From NCBI GenBank assembly GCA_027593035.1, contig JAQCJQ010000002.1:1-63110 (forward strand): a DNA stretch of 63,110 nt, read 5' to 3'. The position numbers and the translations under genes are program-made. Below are positions 6,643 to 62,997 of the stretch, in pieces. Within the stretch, counting starts at the first letter, position 1. The number at the start of each line of letters is the position of its first letter. The stretch comes from Bacteroidota bacterium. GTDB lineage: Bacteria > Bacteroidota > Bacteroidia > Flavobacteriales_D > Sanyastnellaceae. The notes beneath the pieces are model-generated. The model made no database searches, was not told the origin of the DNA, and saw only the letters and a list, made by a program, of their open reading frames with translations.

Positions 6643-8682
6643 TTATGAATCCAAATCAAAAATAAGGCTGAATCGCACGTTTCTGCCCGGCTGCACCACT
6701 TGACCCACGTCCAAGTACTGCGCGTTCAAAACATTGTTCAACCGAATGGCCGTCTTGATTTGATTTTGCTGGCCCCATTCTCGTTGCAATGAGAAGCCCA
6801 GGAGATGAACCGGTTCACTTGCGGAAGGCTGGCTTCGTTCCTGCAGGCTATACCGGATCGCTCCCTCCACATCGGCGGGCAAGGCCCAGTCGGTAACCAC
6901 GTCGACCTTGGTTTTGAGATAGTCCAACACATAGATCGACGTGAATTCTTGTGGCTTCTGGTCCGCTTCGATCCAGGCATAGGCCAATCGCGCGCGACGC
7001 AAGATGGTACCCTCCCATTGGTACGTGCCGGCAATGTCCGCTCCCCAAAAGTCAATGGCGGATAAATTTGCCGCCTGGTAAACGTCCATTGCCGGAACTG
7101 CTTGGTCGTACTTGATCCAGTCGATCAGGTTTTTTCCTTTCCGAGTGAATCCGGAAGTCTCCAGCATGAATCGTCCTGATTGAGGTGCCCAACGGGCCCC
7201 GACCTCCGCTTGCTCTGCGAATTCCGGCAACAAATCTTCGCTGCCCTGAGCGCCTCCGACATTATAATACAAGTCTGTAAACGAGGGGTGACGAACAGAC
7301 CGGCCCGCAGAGGCAAAGAAGACATATTCTTCATCTGCACCCAAGCGGTATCGGATGTCTCCCGATGGGAGGAATTGCTGACCAAATCGGCTGTTGACGT
7401 TGGCCCCTGCCGTCAAAGAGGCCACCAATCTTCCGGATTCCGATCGCCCACTCCAGGAAACCAAGGCGTCCAGGTTGGTGCGCTGGTCACCTCGTGGATA
7501 CATCGCTGGAGCACCGTCTATTTCAGCGCCCAAGCGGTTGCTTTGAATCATTTCCTCGCGAACGTCCGCGGAAAAAGTCAGCACCGATTGGTCTCGATAC
7601 CATTGAAATTTTCCATTCAACGCTGCCGTCAACGACCGATGTTCATTGGCACCCGTATACCACGAAGCGCCCGGCGCGTATAAACCTGCCGTATCGGCAT
7701 CAGCCACGCCGTCCAATGGATTCCTAACAAAAAAGCCATCCTCTGTTTCTTGGTACCAACCCGATCCCTCTCGGTACAATTCAAACCGATCCCGATGGTA
7801 ACGGCCATGCGCTGCGGCTGAAGCACGCCAGTTGGTGCCCGTGCACTCCCAGTTCAATTGCGCAATCGCTGCCTGGGTCGTTTCAAACTGATCCGGGTAG
7901 GCGGATGTATAAAAGTTTTGCGCCCCGAAGGCCTTGTCTTCCAAGGCCACCATCATTTTCCATCGCTGTGACCCTTGGTCCCAATCGGATACCCACATGG
8001 CCCGCGTAATCTGTGCGTCCGCATTGTCCACATGGCCCTTGGTTTCCGCTCGAGACAGGCTAAATCGCTGCGTGGCATGCGTTCCTTTGATGTCTGCATG
8101 CAAGCGAAGGCGCTTCCATCCAAAGCTGCCCATTTCTATCGCTGCTGACCCGCCGTCGGTCACATCCCCTGTCGGCGTTTGCAAGTGCACCGAACCGGCA
8201 AAAGCGCCCGATCCCGCCATGGCCCCCGATCCGCTCCGCACGACTTCCACATGGCCCAAATCCTCCGGATCTATAGGAACATTCATCAAATGGTGCCCTG
8301 TATGGGGAGCGCTCCATCGCACACCATTGACAAGAAGTGCTGTTTGTTCAAAGGATCCCCCGCGAATGCTGATGTCACTTTGGATGCCCCAGGGTCCTCG
8401 GCTGCGAATGTCAACTCCTGGTACAAATTCCAACGCCTCCGTGAGCGATACCGCTGTCTCCAATTCACTCGCTGCCAACACCGTCGTAGCCTTAGGCGCC
8501 TCCAATTTCAACATGGATTGGAGTGCCGTTCCCACTGAAACGGGCGCTTCTGGCAATAGAACTAATGGAATCACTTGCCCTTCAACAGCCAACGAATCTT
8601 GACTGAACACTGTTAATTCGGCTAAGCCTGGTGCGCTGACCAACGCGAGACACACTAAAAATTGTAACCTGAAAATTCCCAT
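6643..8682 (-). CDS. TonB-dependent outer membrane receptor
   Basis: This 679 aa protein begins with a signal peptide (MGIFRLQFLVCLALVSAPG, Ala-type cleavage). It has a plug domain containing EALEFVPGVDIRSRG and the SIRGGSFEQTALLVNGVRW element, then a beta-barrel of alternating aromatic strands ending near the C-terminus with VRFSLIFDLDS. It resembles BtuB/FepA-type receptors, but the ligand cannot be read from sequence. The frame stays open 105 codons further upstream, into lysS on the opposite strand. That part is rejected because the signal peptide starts at 8682 and a good promoter lies at 8710-8736. There is no SusD partner nearby. Confidence 0.92.
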   Translation of the reverse strand: MGIFRLQFLVCLALVSAPGLAELTVFSQDSLAVEGQVIPLVLLPEAPVSVGTALQSMLKLEAPKATTVLAASELETAVSLTEALEFVPGVDIRSRGPWGIQSDISIRGGSFEQTALLVNGVRWSAPHTGHHLMNVPIDPEDLGHVEVVRSGSGAMAGSGAFAGSVHLQTPTGDVTDGGSAAIEMGSFGWKRLRLHADIKGTHATQRFSLSRAETKGHVDNADAQITRAMWVSDWDQGSQRWKMMVALEDKAFGAQNFYTSAYPDQFETTQAAIAQLNWECTGTNWRASAAAHGRYHRDRFELYREGSGWYQETEDGFFVRNPLDGVADADTAGLYAPGASWYTGANEHRSLTAALNGKFQWYRDQSVLTFSADVREEMIQSNRLGAEIDGAPAMYPRGDQRTNLDALVSWSGRSESGRLVASLTAGANVNSRFGQQFLPSGDIRYRLGADEEYVFFASAGRSVRHPSFTDLYYNVGGAQGSEDLLPEFAEQAEVGARWAPQSGRFMLETSGFTRKGKNLIDWIKYDQAVPAMDVYQAANLSAIDFWGADIAGTYQWEGTILRRARLAYAWIEADQKPQEFTSIYVLDYLKTKVDVVTDWALPADVEGAIRYSLQERSQPSASEPVHLLGFSLQREWGQQNQIKTAIRLNNVLNAQYLDVGQVVQPGRNVRFSLIFDLDS

Positions 8683-8709
8683 GGATTCTGGACGTTGTGA
8701 TTGCAAATG

Positions 8710-8736
8710 CAAACGTACAAAGGTCGACGAGACCAA
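8710..8736 (-). promoter_or_regulatory. Promoter of the TonB receptor operon
   Basis: On the minus strand TACGTTTG (8710-8717) matches TAnnTTTG exactly, and a TTG (8734-8736) lies 16 bases upstream as a -33 candidate. The predicted transcript starts near 8704, about 22 bases before the ATG. It sits back-to-back with the lysS promoter in a 91-base intergenic region. Confidence 0.6.
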
Positions 8737-8761
8737 CCACCACTCCGTGCGTCCGTCGATG

Positions 8762-8769
8762 TACCTTTG
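8762..8769 (+). promoter_or_regulatory. Promoter -7 box for lysS (TACCTTTG)
   Basis: TACCTTTG matches TAnnTTTG and is followed by CGGC and then the lysS ATG at 8774. The start codon is therefore expected at or next to the transcription start, giving a leaderless mRNA. No clear -33 TTG is visible at the usual distance. Confidence 0.55.
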
Positions 8770-8773
8770 CGGC

Positions 8774-10486
8774 ATGCAATTGTCGGAACAAGAACGCATT
8801 CGAAGGGATTCCCTGGTCGAATTGCGCAAACTCGGAATTGAACCGTATCCAGCGGCCGCATTTGATGCGACCCACCGATCCTCGTCCCTCGCGGCCAACT
8901 TTAGCGATGGCATGCAGGTCACCCTGGCCGGACGTTTGATGAGCCGAAGGATCATGGGGAAAGCCTCATTCGCTGAAATACAAGACAGCGAAGGCACGTT
9001 CCAGCTTTATCTCAACCGGGATGAACTGTGCCCTGGAGAGGATAAAACGACCTACAATGTCGTCTTCAAGAAACTCCTCGATCGTGGAGATTTCATCGGA
9101 GTCACTGGAGAAACGTTCACCACCCAAACCGGCGAACAAAGTCTCCAAGTCAAATCGCTCACGGTGCTCTCAAAATCTTTGAAGCCGCTCCCGGCCGTTA
9201 AGGTCGATGATGCGGGAATTGCGCACGATGCTTTCGCGGATCCTGAATTGCGTTACCGCATGCGTTATGTGGATTTGGTGGTCAATCCGCATGTTCGAGA
9301 AACATTTGAATCCCGGTCCCGCATCATCCGCACCATCCGGGAATCGTTCGACCAACAAGGTTGGTTGGAGGTAGACACGCCTGTTTTGCAGGCCATTCCT
9401 GGCGGTGCTGCAGCTCGGCCGTTTTCGACGCACCACAACGCGTTGGACATCCCGCTGTATTTGCGAATAGCCAACGAATTGTACCTGAAGCGACTCATTG
9501 TCGGCGGTTTTGAAGGCGTGTATGAATTCTCTCGAAATTTCCGAAATGAGGGCATGGACCGGACGCACAACCCGGAATTCACCGTATTGGAGTTGTACGT
9601 AGCGTACAAGGACTACCACTGGATGATGGAGACCATTGAGAACCTCATTGGGGATGTCTGCCAATCCGTGCACGGAAAAATGCAGGCCAACCTGGGCGGG
9701 CAAGAGATTGATTTCAAGCCGCCATACCAACGCGTCACGATGCGTGATTCCATCTTGGAACACACCGGAATTGATATCGACGGGAAGAATGAGGCTGAAC
9801 TCCGCAGCGCTTGCCAATCGGTGGGGGTCAATACGGATGAGAGCATGGGCAAAGGAAAATTGATTGACGAGTTGTTCGGTGAGAAATGCGAGCATCACTA
9901 TGTTCAGCCGACATTCATCATCGATTATCCCGTGGAAATGTCCCCTCTGACCAAAGTGCATCGCGACAAGCCGGACTATACGGAGCGGTTTGAATTGATG
10001 ATCAACGGAACCGAAGTGGCCAACGCCTACAGCGAGCTCAATGATCCCATTGATCAGCGGGAGCGATTTGAAGAGCAACTCAAGCTCGGCGCTCGCGGAG
10101 ACGATGAGGCCATGTTCATTGACCAGGATTTCTTGCGTGCACTGGAATACGGCATGCCGCCAACCAGTGGTGTTGGAATTGGGATTGACCGCTTGGTCAT
10201 GATGTTGACGAATCAAACGTCCATTCAAGAAGTGCTGTTGTTCCCTCAAATGCGCCCGGAGGTATTCAGCACTGGCCCGAATTTGAAGGCGCTCGAAGCG
10301 TTGGGAATTCCCCGCGAGTGGACCGAACATGTGGCCGCAGCCGGTTTTGATTCCGCCGCCGCTCTCGCCGAAACGTCCCCCGCAGGACTGCGCGAAAAAA
10401 TGAACGGCTACCGCAAAAAGAACAAATTGTCCCTCCCTGCACTTTCATTGGAAGATGTGGAGGCCTGGTTTTCCACCATTCATTAA
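8774..10486 (+). CDS. lysS: Lysyl-tRNA synthetase, class II
   Basis: This enzyme charges tRNA-Lys. An N-terminal OB-fold anticodon-binding domain (about residues 45-160) precedes the class II catalytic core. The core has motif 2 in FRNEGMDRTHNPEFTVLE and motif 3 near the end of the core as GVGIGIDRLVMML. At 570 aa it is longer than the E. coli enzyme because of a C-terminal extension of about 70 residues after the core (LKALEALGIPREWTEHV onward), a known feature of Bacteroidota LysRS. Upstream in-frame ATGs exist, but the promoter box at 8762 rules them out. It leads a lysS-DUF59-dxr operon. Confidence 0.97.
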   Translation: MQLSEQERIRRDSLVELRKLGIEPYPAAAFDATHRSSSLAANFSDGMQVTLAGRLMSRRIMGKASFAEIQDSEGTFQLYLNRDELCPGEDKTTYNVVFKKLLDRGDFIGVTGETFTTQTGEQSLQVKSLTVLSKSLKPLPAVKVDDAGIAHDAFADPELRYRMRYVDLVVNPHVRETFESRSRIIRTIRESFDQQGWLEVDTPVLQAIPGGAAARPFSTHHNALDIPLYLRIANELYLKRLIVGGFEGVYEFSRNFRNEGMDRTHNPEFTVLELYVAYKDYHWMMETIENLIGDVCQSVHGKMQANLGGQEIDFKPPYQRVTMRDSILEHTGIDIDGKNEAELRSACQSVGVNTDESMGKGKLIDELFGEKCEHHYVQPTFIIDYPVEMSPLTKVHRDKPDYTERFELMINGTEVANAYSELNDPIDQRERFEEQLKLGARGDDEAMFIDQDFLRALEYGMPPTSGVGIGIDRLVMMLTNQTSIQEVLLFPQMRPEVFSTGPNLKALEALGIPREWTEHVAAAGFDSAAALAETSPAGLREKMNGYRKKNKLSLPALSLEDVEAWFSTIH

Positions 10487-59105: not shown

Positions 59106-61055
59106 TCAGCGTTCTGGGAAATCATTCTCCACGTTGACCTCAATCCGCTTGTCTTGATTGGCCAATTGCCACGCCGTGTGAAACACGAGCCTGCCAATTT
59201 CAGCCGTCTTATCGTAGTGGATTTTTTCTGGGTCATCTCCTGGTTTGTGGTAATCCTCATGCACTCCACTGAAGTAAAAAATCACCGGGATGTTGTGCTT
59301 TGCGAAATTGTAATGATCTGATCGGTAGTAAAACCGATTTGGGTCATCCGGTGCGTTGAAGGTGTAATCCAACGCGAGTTGTGTGAACTCCGTGTTCGCG
59401 TTCTCGCTGATTTCGTGCAATTCCGTGGATAGCTTATCGGACCCAATCAAGTAGACGTATCGGTCATCATCCGGATGCGCTTCGTCCGTTCGACCAATCA
59501 TGTCGATGTTGAGGTTCGCAACCGTGTTCTCCAAAGGCCACACCGGGTGATCTGAGTACCATTCGCTGCCCAACAACCCTTTCTCTTCTCCAACTACCGT
59601 CATAAGCAAAACACTGCGTCTTGGGCCTTCTCCGGCGTCTACAGCGGCCATGAACGCTTGGGCCAATTCCAATACAGTTACCGTCCCTGATCCATCATCA
59701 TCCGCTCCGTTGTGAATTTCACCATCTATGATGCCCACGTGATCGTAATGAGCGGTGATCACCACCACCTCGTCCCGCAATAAAGAGTCGCGACCCGGGA
59801 TATAACCCAAGACATTTTGGGTGTTGAATTTTCCCGAACGATCATCCAAATTGAAGGACCAATTTGCTGCCGGCATCACCTCTGCCATCAAGGCATCGCT
59901 TTTTGTTTTTTTCTTCTGAATTTTTTTCCAACTCTTCAGTGAGGTCTGCTTCCACCAGTCTGCTGTTGAGCCGCCTTCCATGAAAAATGTAGGCAAGCGT
60001 GTTCCTTCTGTTACTTTCGGATCAGGTTGATCCAAACGCATCGACTTCCGCATCAACCAAGGCTTCAAGCGTCCTTTGTAAGCGCTCAATCCTTCACCCA
60101 ACACCACCAACGCTCGGGCACCACTGGCCTCTGCATTCAGTCGCTTTTTTTCCAATCCATCGCGCCAGTTTTCTTCAACGGAATCTTTCGTTCCCGCAAA
60201 AACAACGGCGACAGCTCCATTGAAATCCATGCCTTCGAAATCTCCTACATCCCCCCAAGAAGCAAACACCATGGGCAGGTTCACCATGGATTTATCGCGC
60301 ATTCCAGGATAAAACACGTAATCTTCTAAAAATTCAAAAGAATCTCCCGAAACACTCAAATCCCCTCCAAGGATCTGGGTGCGCACCATAGGCACTTCTT
60401 GGAAATATCCCGCCTCGTGGTATGGTGCAATTCCAATGGATTCAAAATAACTCGCGATGTATGCCGCGGCCTTCTCAGCGCCGGGCTCACCTGTTTCCCT
60501 TCCTTCAAACGCATCACTCGCCAAAACCATGAGGTGGTTTTCTAGATCACTCGGTTCAATGGTAGCCGCCCACTTCGTGGATTGAGCTGACAATGAGGAG
60601 GACACGGCTAACAATAAAGCCAGTCCTGCGCAAGCAATTTTCCCCACCCGTTGGTGATGTCGGCCTCCCTCAAATTCCTCCGATAAAAAAACCCGCACAA
60701 CCTCCAATGCTTCTGCCTCATCAATGAAACGCGCGGGAATGCAAATGACATTGGCATCATTGTGTTGCCGCGTCAGTAAAGCGATCTCGCGCTTCAAAGC
60801 AATGCCTGCGCGGACGGACTGGTGTTTGTTCGCTGTCATGGCCACGCCATTAGCAGACCCACAAATTAAAATTCCGCGATCCGCTGAGCCATTCTGAACA
60901 TCCATAGCCACCTGGTGAGCATGATCAGGATAATCTACACGATCTTCTGTATCGGTACCCCGATTGATAACGTCGTGGCCTTTGGATATTAACTCTTCGG
61001 TGATTACCTTCTTCAGTGCTGGTCCGGCGTGATCGCCTCCAATCGAAATGCGCAT
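59106..61055 (-). CDS. In-frame fusion of ribose-5-phosphate isomerase B and M28 metallopeptidase
   Basis: This 649 aa frame begins as RpiB: GGDHAGPALKKVI, DYPDHAHQVA, the catalytic cysteine at residue 65 in ICGSANGVAMTANKH, and the family C-terminus EEFEGGRHHQRV. It continues directly, without a stop, into KIACAGLALLLAVSSSLSAQ, a textbook signal peptide, and an M28 peptidase. All metal ligands of the peptidase are visible: ITAHYDHVG, GADDDGSGTV, GEEKGLLGS, NIDMIGR and the late His in HEDYHKPGD. A GTG codon at 60645-60647 (residue 137, RV) could start a separate exported peptidase. The ATG at 61055 is the RpiB start (TTG at 61070 is longer). Confidence 0.85.
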   Translation of the reverse strand: MRISIGGDHAGPALKKVITEELISKGHDVINRGTDTEDRVDYPDHAHQVAMDVQNGSADRGILICGSANGVAMTANKHQSVRAGIALKREIALLTRQHNDANVICIPARFIDEAEALEVVRVFLSEEFEGGRHHQRVGKIACAGLALLLAVSSSLSAQSTKWAATIEPSDLENHLMVLASDAFEGRETGEPGAEKAAAYIASYFESIGIAPYHEAGYFQEVPMVRTQILGGDLSVSGDSFEFLEDYVFYPGMRDKSMVNLPMVFASWGDVGDFEGMDFNGAVAVVFAGTKDSVEENWRDGLEKKRLNAEASGARALVVLGEGLSAYKGRLKPWLMRKSMRLDQPDPKVTEGTRLPTFFMEGGSTADWWKQTSLKSWKKIQKKKTKSDALMAEVMPAANWSFNLDDRSGKFNTQNVLGYIPGRDSLLRDEVVVITAHYDHVGIIDGEIHNGADDDGSGTVTVLELAQAFMAAVDAGEGPRRSVLLMTVVGEEKGLLGSEWYSDHPVWPLENTVANLNIDMIGRTDEAHPDDDRYVYLIGSDKLSTELHEISENANTEFTQLALDYTFNAPDDPNRFYYRSDHYNFAKHNIPVIFYFSGVHEDYHKPGDDPEKIHYDKTAEIGRLVFHTAWQLANQDKRIEVNVENDFPER

Positions 61056-61437
61056 GGATTCAAATTTCAAGCAAGGTAATTCACAACCGAACCGTTGATA
61101 GCGATATTATTCGGTTTACAACTCCTAACAACTCCAACTTGCTATTCTCATCCACTACACCTAAGCCGCACAACCCGCTATTTTTCCAAATTATTTCGTT
61201 GGAAGTTTTCGTTTCATTTATCCTCCAACTTCAGCCTTTTACAGACAACTTGCATCCGTGAAAAATATACACAATCAGCAACTACCCCGGTTTGTTAATC
61301 AAACAATTAAAAAGCTGATTTTCAGTTGTATTTTTTCAACTTCCCTGTTTGAAACCATGCTTTAAATTGTTCGGAATTCAAAAACTACTGCTACTTTGAA
61401 ATTGATTACTAACCGTTTCAACAAGCCTATTGTTACT
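61056..61437 (+). promoter_or_regulatory. AT-rich intergenic region with candidate promoter for the MORN gene
   Basis: This 382-base gap, the longest in the window, is clearly AT-richer than its surroundings. I find no convincing ORF. Near its right end a TTG (61367-61369) is 22 bases from TACTTTG (61392-61398), a one-base-shorter version of TAnnTTTG, placing a start about 35 bases before the ATG at 61438. The leftmost part should carry the promoter for the rpiB-peptidase gene on the minus strand, but none is clear. Confidence 0.4.
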
Positions 61438-62997
61438 ATGACTTATTCTTTAAGAGAATACTTATATATACTATGTTGTTCACTGGTAATCTCCGCTTCA
61501 GCTCAGCCACAAATTGAAAATTGTGTCTGGACAACATTTACCTTTGAGCATGGAGAAAAAGCAAGTGAAGGATGCCTGGTCGATGGAAAACCTGAAGGCG
61601 AATGGAAGACATTTTATGAAAACGGAATTTTAAAAAGCAAGGGTTCAAGGAAAGTATTTGAATTGGATGGATTGTGGGAGTTTTACTACGAAAATGGAAC
61701 GATCCAGAGACGTGTAGAATTTGAGAAGGGACAACAAAATGGGAAAAAATGGAGCTATGATGAAAACGGAACTTTACTGACAGAAAGCGCATTCAACAAC
61801 AACATCCAGGTAGAAAATCAACGGGTTTATGACCCAGCGGGATGGTTGAAAAAACGGATTCCTTTTGCTGCTGGAAAACCCCATGGTTGGGGAAGAGAAT
61901 GGGCGTCAGATGGAAGGGTGATTGCACTCTTCGAATATGATCAAGGACGACTGAGATCCACGCAACGCATCAACGCGTTGGATGATCAAAATAGAAAGAC
62001 AGGGTTGTGGATGGTATGGAATTCCATGGAGCGCAAAACAGAAGAAGGACCATGGCGTGCTGGTAAACGACACGGAGTTTTTAAGTTTTATGATGGTTTT
62101 GGTCAACTGGATTATTTAGAAAAATATGAATTTGGAGAGGTGGTGCAGGACATAAAAGCTACCACACCAGTGGATGTGCGGACCACAGTTCATCCGAACG
62201 GAGTGATCGCCACACGAGCAACTTATTCCGAAGGAGAGTTGGTGGGAGTTTGGAGAGAGTACGACGACCAAGGAACCCTGGAATCAGGGGCTTTGTATGA
62301 GAGAAATAAAAAAGTAGCCGACGGAATCACCGATGAGCAAGGCCGGCGGATGGGTGCATGGGTGTGGTACGATGAGATGGGTCAGAAAAAATCAGCCGGA
62401 AATTATCTTTTAGGAAAGGAAGAGGGATTGTGGGAGTACTTCAGCAACATCGGTCAAATCATTCAAGAGGGATCTTTTAAAAACGGACGCTATCACGGAG
62501 GCTGGACGTGGTATTATCCCGATGGTTCTATGCATCGGAAGGAGTGGTATCGAAACGGCCAAGAAAATGGTGATTTCACAGAGTGGAGTCAAACCCAATC
62601 TTTACTGAATAAGGGTGTTTATGAAAATGGATTGAAGCAAGGAATGTGGATTGAAGATGTCAATGATCACCGAGAAGAGGGAAATTATTTGGACGGATTG
62701 AAAAACGACGAATGGACGCATTATGATGCGGATGGAGCTGTTCGATTTGAAGGAAATTATAGTTTTGGTCTACCGGATGGAAAACATGTTTTTTATCGTG
62801 CCAACGGAAGTGTTTGGCGAATTGAACGGTATGAAGGTGGAGCGAAGGAAGGGAAATGGAAGGTGTACAACGCGGAAAATCTCATTGAACAAATCATTGA
62901 ATACCGACAAGGGGAGATGATTAAAGTGGATGGCCAAAACATTCAAACCAGAAGGGAACGACGTGTCACAGGCGAACTGAAGACAGAAGCACCATGA
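61438..62997 (+). CDS. Secreted MORN-variant repeat protein (YwqK-like)
   Basis: This 519 aa protein begins with a signal peptide (YLYILCCSLVISASAQ). From about residue 35 to the end it is built of roughly 16 MORN_2-type repeats of 22-23 residues. Each is of the form GxWxxYxxNGxxxxxGxYxxG, for example GLWEYFSNIGQIIQEGSF and GGWTWYYPDGSMHRKEWY. Such repeats occur in YwqK-like antitoxins and in many Bacteroidota surface proteins, where they probably mediate protein binding. The ATG at 61438 is chosen to fit the signal peptide (TTG at 61396 is longer). The C-terminus has no T9SS domain. It overlaps the next ORF by four bases. Confidence 0.85.
   Translation: MTYSLREYLYILCCSLVISASAQPQIENCVWTTFTFEHGEKASEGCLVDGKPEGEWKTFYENGILKSKGSRKVFELDGLWEFYYENGTIQRRVEFEKGQQNGKKWSYDENGTLLTESAFNNNIQVENQRVYDPAGWLKKRIPFAAGKPHGWGREWASDGRVIALFEYDQGRLRSTQRINALDDQNRKTGLWMVWNSMERKTEEGPWRAGKRHGVFKFYDGFGQLDYLEKYEFGEVVQDIKATTPVDVRTTVHPNGVIATRATYSEGELVGVWREYDDQGTLESGALYERNKKVADGITDEQGRRMGAWVWYDEMGQKKSAGNYLLGKEEGLWEYFSNIGQIIQEGSFKNGRYHGGWTWYYPDGSMHRKEWYRNGQENGDFTEWSQTQSLLNKGVYENGLKQGMWIEDVNDHREEGNYLDGLKNDEWTHYDADGAVRFEGNYSFGLPDGKHVFYRANGSVWRIERYEGGAKEGKWKVYNAENLIEQIIEYRQGEMIKVDGQNIQTRRERRVTGELKTEAP

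Follow-up and report, generated by a model that had tools for sequence, protein, structure and literature searches.

A gene for a ribose-5-phosphate isomerase of the RpiB type and a gene for an M28 peptidase are joined in one open reading frame in the window (the whole stretch of 63,110 nucleotides that was analyzed), and a segment resembling a signal peptide lies buried at the junction. The fusion is conserved in related genomes, and the fused loci have lost the charged n-region of the peptidase's own signal and have retained its hydrophobic region and c-region. From these features we infer the targeting, topology and cleavage of the fused protein. The best reading, and one that we consider moderately probable, is a polyprotein in which an internal signal would leave RpiB in the cytosol and send the M28 part to the periplasm, with a cut between A157 and Q158.

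Inspection of the minus strand revealed a single open frame of 649 amino acids, from an ATG at 61055 to a stop at 59106-59108. Profile searches placed PF02502 (E 5.5e-49) and PF04389 (E 1.4e-38) in this frame, with no intervening stop. An earlier sequence-only reading of this DNA had described an in-frame RpiB-M28 fusion with a signal-like segment, and this description is borne out by the two profile matches and by a frame that is open in 44 loci. The features are as follows.

59106..61055, minus strand: rpiB-M28 fusion gene of 649 codons and a stop, with the frame open in 44 loci.
60636..61049, minus strand: RpiB (LacAB_rpiB) domain, profile positions 1-138 of 138, E 3.1e-50; match to the PDB RpiB structure 3he8, E 3.6e-34.
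60639..60665, minus strand: RpiB C-terminal tail GRHHQRVGK (residues 131-139); net charge mean +3.45 and minimum +2 over 9 aligned residues in 44 loci.
60645..60647, minus strand: GTG (V137), the internal start proposed earlier; a GTG in 19/44 fused loci, not conserved.
60603..60638, minus strand: hydrophobic core IACAGLALLLAV (residues 140-151), mean Kyte-Doolittle hydropathy 2.77; the sole block that strong in the fused frame.
60582..60602, minus strand: c-region SSSLSA plus Q158, predicted signal peptidase I cut A157/Q158; profile score 11.8.
59109..60584, minus strand: residues 158-649, the part predicted to be exported; within it the M28 domain matches PF04389 (profile positions 1-191 of 193) at 59178-59816.

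The RpiB part passed the cut-off of NF004051 (157.7 bits; cut-off, 135) and fell slightly below that of TIGR01120 (137.7; cut-off, 138.65). Its residues D8, H9, C65, G66, H98, R132, H133, and R136 are invariant in 16/16 aligned fused proteins, and we take the invariant Cys, His and tail Arg/His to be active-site residues. The M28 part scored 133 bits against PF04389 (cut-off, 21.3). Its motifs HYDH, NGADDDGSG, GEEKGLLGS, NxDMxGR, and HEDYH, presumably those that carry the ligands of the two zinc ions, are likewise invariant in 16/16 aligned fused proteins. Both flanking genes lie on the plus strand; one of them had no Pfam match at 0.001. The gene at 61396-62997 (plus strand), next to the fused gene, encodes a MORN_2-repeat protein with a signal-like N terminus. 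A scan of the window frames of at least 200 residues found several further frames with a hydrophobic block distant from the start. The frame at 6643-9006 was rejected as another buried signal because it just extends upstream of a normal start.

The signal-like segment comprises residues 137-157, VGKIACAGLALLLAVSSSLSA, followed by Q158. The internal signal as a whole is not N-terminal, beginning at about residue 131 of 649. The features of a Sec-type signal are present, namely, a positive n-region, a hydrophobic core and a small residue at -1, and a Tat signal was rejected by eye because the window gene has no RRxFLK-type motif. A 12-residue core with a mean Kyte-Doolittle hydropathy of 2.18-3.25 (the Ile of the preceding KI counted) stands at the junction in 44/44 fused loci. 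With that Ile left out, the fused cores ranged from 1.82 to 3.0 (mean, 2.40), compared with a mean of 0.81 and a 95% point of 1.94 for shuffled sequences. On this common measure, 2.5% of 8,800 shuffles and 2 of the 26,665 windows taken elsewhere in the fused proteins attained 2.18, and fused and unfused loci are about equal (2.40 versus 2.48). An [AGSTC]Q site was found in 44/44 fused and 33/33 unfused loci, compared to 10% of shuffles. Leu stands at -3 of the predicted cut in 15/44 fused loci. A profile trained solely on the signal segments of 33 unfused relatives scored 41/44 fused loci above 99% of shuffles, with three below, and only 23/44 outscored the best other window of their own proteins.

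The mean charge in the 44 fused loci is +3.45 before the core, on the RpiB side, and -1.6 after it, on the M28 side. Between KI and the cut site, K and R are absent in 43/44 fused loci, the exception (L016) having one behind the core. This K/R-free stretch means that the charged n-region of the peptidase itself is gone, so that the RpiB tail is the only n-region. The tail GRHHQRVGK is therefore read as a putative double-purpose element that both ends RpiB and provides the internal signal with its positive n-region.

To define the distribution of the fusion, 114 genomes of the family were searched, and the length of the open frame around each RpiB match was taken. RpiB was matched in 102 genomes, 43 of which have it fused. 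In genera g1, g3, g9, g13, and g14, every genome with RpiB is fused (41/41), and genus g10 contributes 2 of its 16 RpiB-bearing genomes; nine more genomes of the former five genera, 63-92% complete, gave no RpiB match. Junctions were read in 44 fused loci (43 genomes) and in 33 unfused loci, which were a selection from the search lists. Rows dropped were L025 (the same place as L063) and L031 and L032 (another M28 copy with no RpiB motif). The 80 named loci listed comprised 4 fused and 30 unfused loci and 46 without an RpiB motif match; four of those 46 have an RpiB with a variant tail, each ending in a stop. The four fused named loci (L081-L084), which are the same places as L004, L017, L049, and L007, are all metagenome assemblies, which would fit an artifact of sequencing or assembly, or the loss of a stop in a single strain. 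Such an origin is contradicted by conservation, as 43 separate assemblies from six genera show the same open junction with differing codons, and its probability is negligible. A recent loss of the stop, also raised by the sequence-only reading, is at odds with a fusion shared by every RpiB-bearing genome (41/41) in five genera and with a tree that needs at least two changes.

Wider searches recovered the fusion only within the family, at cut-offs that may overlook distant fusions: 4/395 genomes of the phylum matched at E <= 1e-130 and 97/399 of the order at E <= 1e-135, and the only ones outside the family (G400 and G759, and G150 and G193, respectively) all had internal stops. RpiB is single copy in nearly all family genomes, with second matches in G128 and G136. 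In G136 there are two fused loci, one of which nests within g1 in the tree and looks like contamination. The second RpiB-like match of G128 (G128:C39:5743-6156), a fused genome with 6% contamination, lies in a frame of 387 residues and might be another RpiB fusion. In G030 the RpiB match is split over two contigs.

Comparison of the three segments revealed median pairwise identities of 0.66 for RpiB, 0.75 for the M28 catalytic part and 0.23 for the signal segment. The corresponding median dN/dS values were 0.10, 0.07, and 0.67, from 89 to 441 pairs per segment, many of them saturated at synonymous sites. As judged from their sequences, both RpiB and M28 are under purifying selection, and the intervening segment appears to be preserved as a signal rather than as a sequence. 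This bears on the idea of a cytosolic bifunctional enzyme whose hydrophobic segment is a mere linker. The open frame by itself would allow such an enzyme, but the core and c-region have been retained despite sequence drift, and the unfused M28 relatives carry signal-like N termini in 33/33 loci. We therefore consider a cytosolic enzyme very improbable. The same 33 N termini agree with the earlier view that this M28 peptidase is of an exported kind.

Analysis of the unfused relatives revealed how the junction may have arisen. In all 33 unfused family loci read, rpiB and M28 are adjacent separate genes. The unfused rpiB typically ends in ..RVxKIACS*, and in 20/33 loci M28 starts at an ATGA overlap in a different frame. 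The sequence-only reading had suggested comparing relatives at the junction; clearly separate genes do exist among them, but only outside the fused groups. In L024, L054, and L055, rpiB and M28 stand in one frame with a stop in between. Like the collinear genes of G150 and G193, these arrangements, with one or two in-frame stops, are possible intermediates toward fusion. In the fused loci the stop is lost and the core follows KI directly. In 16/44 fused loci, the window gene not being among them, one of the first six residues past KI is a Met, which may be the old M28 start surviving in some of them. A Bacteroidota-type promoter match (at most one mismatch to the consensus, with no shuffle control) was observed within 150 nt upstream of rpiB in 7/32 unfused and 0/44 fused loci.

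Two trees were calculated, a quick one with 76 of the 77 rows and a careful one with 48 hand-picked rows. L051, cut by a contig end, was excluded from both trees and from dN/dS, and L049, which contains N, was excluded from the careful tree and dN/dS. The careful tree requires at least two changes between the fused and unfused states, and constraining the fused rows to one group was rejected (AU p 1.3e-7, 48-row tree). This count fits either two fusions or a single fusion with a reversal. We favor two fusions, because the unfused g10 loci and more distant relatives would seem to share the KIACS-TGA/ATG type of junction. On a branch of their own, L052 and L053 of g10 have a fusion of this kind, the other 12 g10 loci read being unfused; their fusion is either of independent origin or a remnant of an older one.

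An internal start would supply the peptidase in a different manner: besides making the fusion, ribosomes would begin near the junction, at the GTG of V137 or at another codon, and an ordinary secreted M28 precursor would result. The GTG that the sequence-only reading had put forward at 60645-60647 is indeed present in the window gene, as the codon of V137, and in 18 other fused loci. As a mechanism it is not supported, since 19/44 agrees with the frequency expected from Val codon usage (0.41; binomial p 0.76). In the unfused loci, where the real start is close by, GTG is below usage (3/33 versus 0.37; p 4.5e-4); it looks as if GTG is avoided in the unfused RpiB tail near the real M28 start, and the fused loci show no such deficit. 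Other candidate starts are an ATG four codons before FEGGRH in 13/44 fused loci and the Met within six residues past KI, which includes 9/10 g3 loci. A promoter-like match in the last 200 nt of rpiB, scored with at most one mismatch and no shuffle control against what we take to be the Bacteroidota consensus, was found in 5/44 fused and 0/33 unfused loci. On the basis of the FEGGRH ATG and the post-KI Met, an extra internal start is possible in some lineages. Against a wider role, no start position is common to all fused loci, starts past KI would leave no K or R before the core, and the window gene has only its GTG, with neither a promoter-like match nor the FEGGRH ATG nor a post-KI Met. In five g14 loci, the stretch that begins 40 codons before FEGGRH and runs to the core is free of ATG, GTG, and TTG; in L022, L036, and L038 of g14, this start-free stretch extends to the cut site, so that their signal cannot be attributed to internal initiation at a usual codon. 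The fused chain would persist in any case, as no stop is present. An internal GTG start was rejected as a general mechanism, because GTG is not conserved and start-free loci exist, and internal initiation near the junction as a whole is quite unlikely.

The absence of a stop codon also means that every full RpiB is born joined to the signal and M28, and the product is almost certainly made as one chain. Programmed frameshifting to free RpiB was rejected: there is no conserved slippery heptamer, and the 13/44 loci that have one have it at five different positions. A selected RNA structure at the junction was also rejected. In a raw comparison the junction appeared more structured in fused loci, but against a synonymous-codon null the mean z was -0.09 in fused and 0.09 in unfused loci, and with values so near zero, no inference on junction RNA structure was drawn. 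RpiA was found in 0/114 family genomes, compared to 8/14 control genomes with matches. Since RpiA was not found, RpiB is nearly always single and the stop is absent, the fused RpiB probably must work.

In the polyprotein reading, RpiB would be translated first and remain cytosolic, and its basic C-terminal tail would act as the n-region of the internal signal sequence. Once out of the ribosome, the hydrophobic core would engage SecYEG and insert in the N-in/C-out orientation, the M28 part would be threaded to the periplasm, and a cut by signal peptidase I at A157/Q158 would release the mature peptidase. A folded RpiB immediately preceding the core might impede the insertion. A signal peptidase match (PF10502) is present in the genome. 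According to two reports, positive charge before a hydrophobic core directs N-in/C-out insertion by the positive-inside rule (PMC9360617, PMC7396858). With this orientation RpiB would remain inside and M28 would be exported, an arrangement that we regard as likely. The earlier claim that a fusion puts the isomerase outside the cell or the peptidase inside it is thus not forced, as the charge pattern around the core leads one to expect N-in/C-out.

Whether the signal would be removed is a separate matter. After a cut, about 18 hydrophobic residues would stay on RpiB as a tail at the inner membrane; with no cut, the fused protein would be a bitopic membrane enzyme. The latter, in which the segment would be a type II signal anchor that is never removed, RpiB lying on the cytosolic and M28 on the periplasmic face of the inner membrane, is the strongest rival, and the topology argument for it is identical. 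Fused loci have a longer uncharged run than unfused ones (median, 17 versus 14; p 9e-6), one RpiB Ile being counted in for the fused loci. A transmembrane-like 19-residue hydropathy is attained by 29/44 fused and 15/33 unfused loci, with no significant difference between the means (p 0.15). In yeast, according to one report, long N-terminal extensions reduce signal peptidase cleavage of otherwise cleavable signals (PMC8277137), and by this effect the signal of the fused protein may persist as an anchor. On the other side stands the small residue-Q site, present in every fused locus compared to a tenth of shuffles and identical in form to the one that ends the N-terminal signal peptide in 33/33 unfused loci. 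We consider a permanent anchor unlikely and cleavage of the chain somewhat more probable than not. Extending the polyprotein reading, there is about an even chance that what is apparently the sole ribose-5-phosphate isomerase of these bacteria forms the cytosolic end of a secretory precursor and is thereby anchored at the inner membrane, transiently or permanently, in a strict 1:1 ratio with a periplasmic peptidase, and that this arrangement arose twice (or once with a reversal) through use of the conserved RpiB tail as an n-region.

Where rpiB and M28 are neighboring genes in other Bacteroidota, they resemble the fusion in their proteins, their order and the signal-like N terminus of M28, and they differ in having a separate start for each protein and a stop at the end of rpiB. 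The natural series from ATGA overlap through collinear genes with an in-frame stop to fusion on two branches suggests that a signal can become buried through loss of a stop and of a charged n-region. Methods that look for signal peptides only at the N terminus would call the fused M28 peptidase cytosolic. The fused gene also makes it testable how large a folded cytosolic domain is tolerated before a working signal in bacteria. A literature search that covered few subscription journals found no published description of an RpiB-M28 fusion, and to our knowledge, bacterial polyproteins that combine a soluble metabolic enzyme with an exported enzyme have hardly been described. In the cytochrome b/c1 polyprotein FbcH of Bradyrhizobium, two proteins arise by cleavage at an internal signal that precedes the exported C-terminal domain. 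Like rpiB-M28, FbcH is a bacterial polyprotein with an internal signal ahead of an exported C-terminal domain. The two are not homologous, cleavage of the rpiB-M28 product is only predicted, and both products of FbcH are subunits of one membrane complex, whereas rpiB-M28 joins a soluble metabolic enzyme to an unrelated peptidase. Type II (N-in) anchors and internal signals offer a further parallel: according to two reports, internal signal sequences can be cleaved in yeast, and positive charge followed by a core sets the N-in/C-out orientation (PMC7396858, PMC8277137), as would be the case in rpiB-M28. Unlike in such anchors, the charged side in rpiB-M28 is formed by the C terminus of an entire cytosolic enzyme, and the unfused relatives carry an ordinary N-terminal signal peptide.
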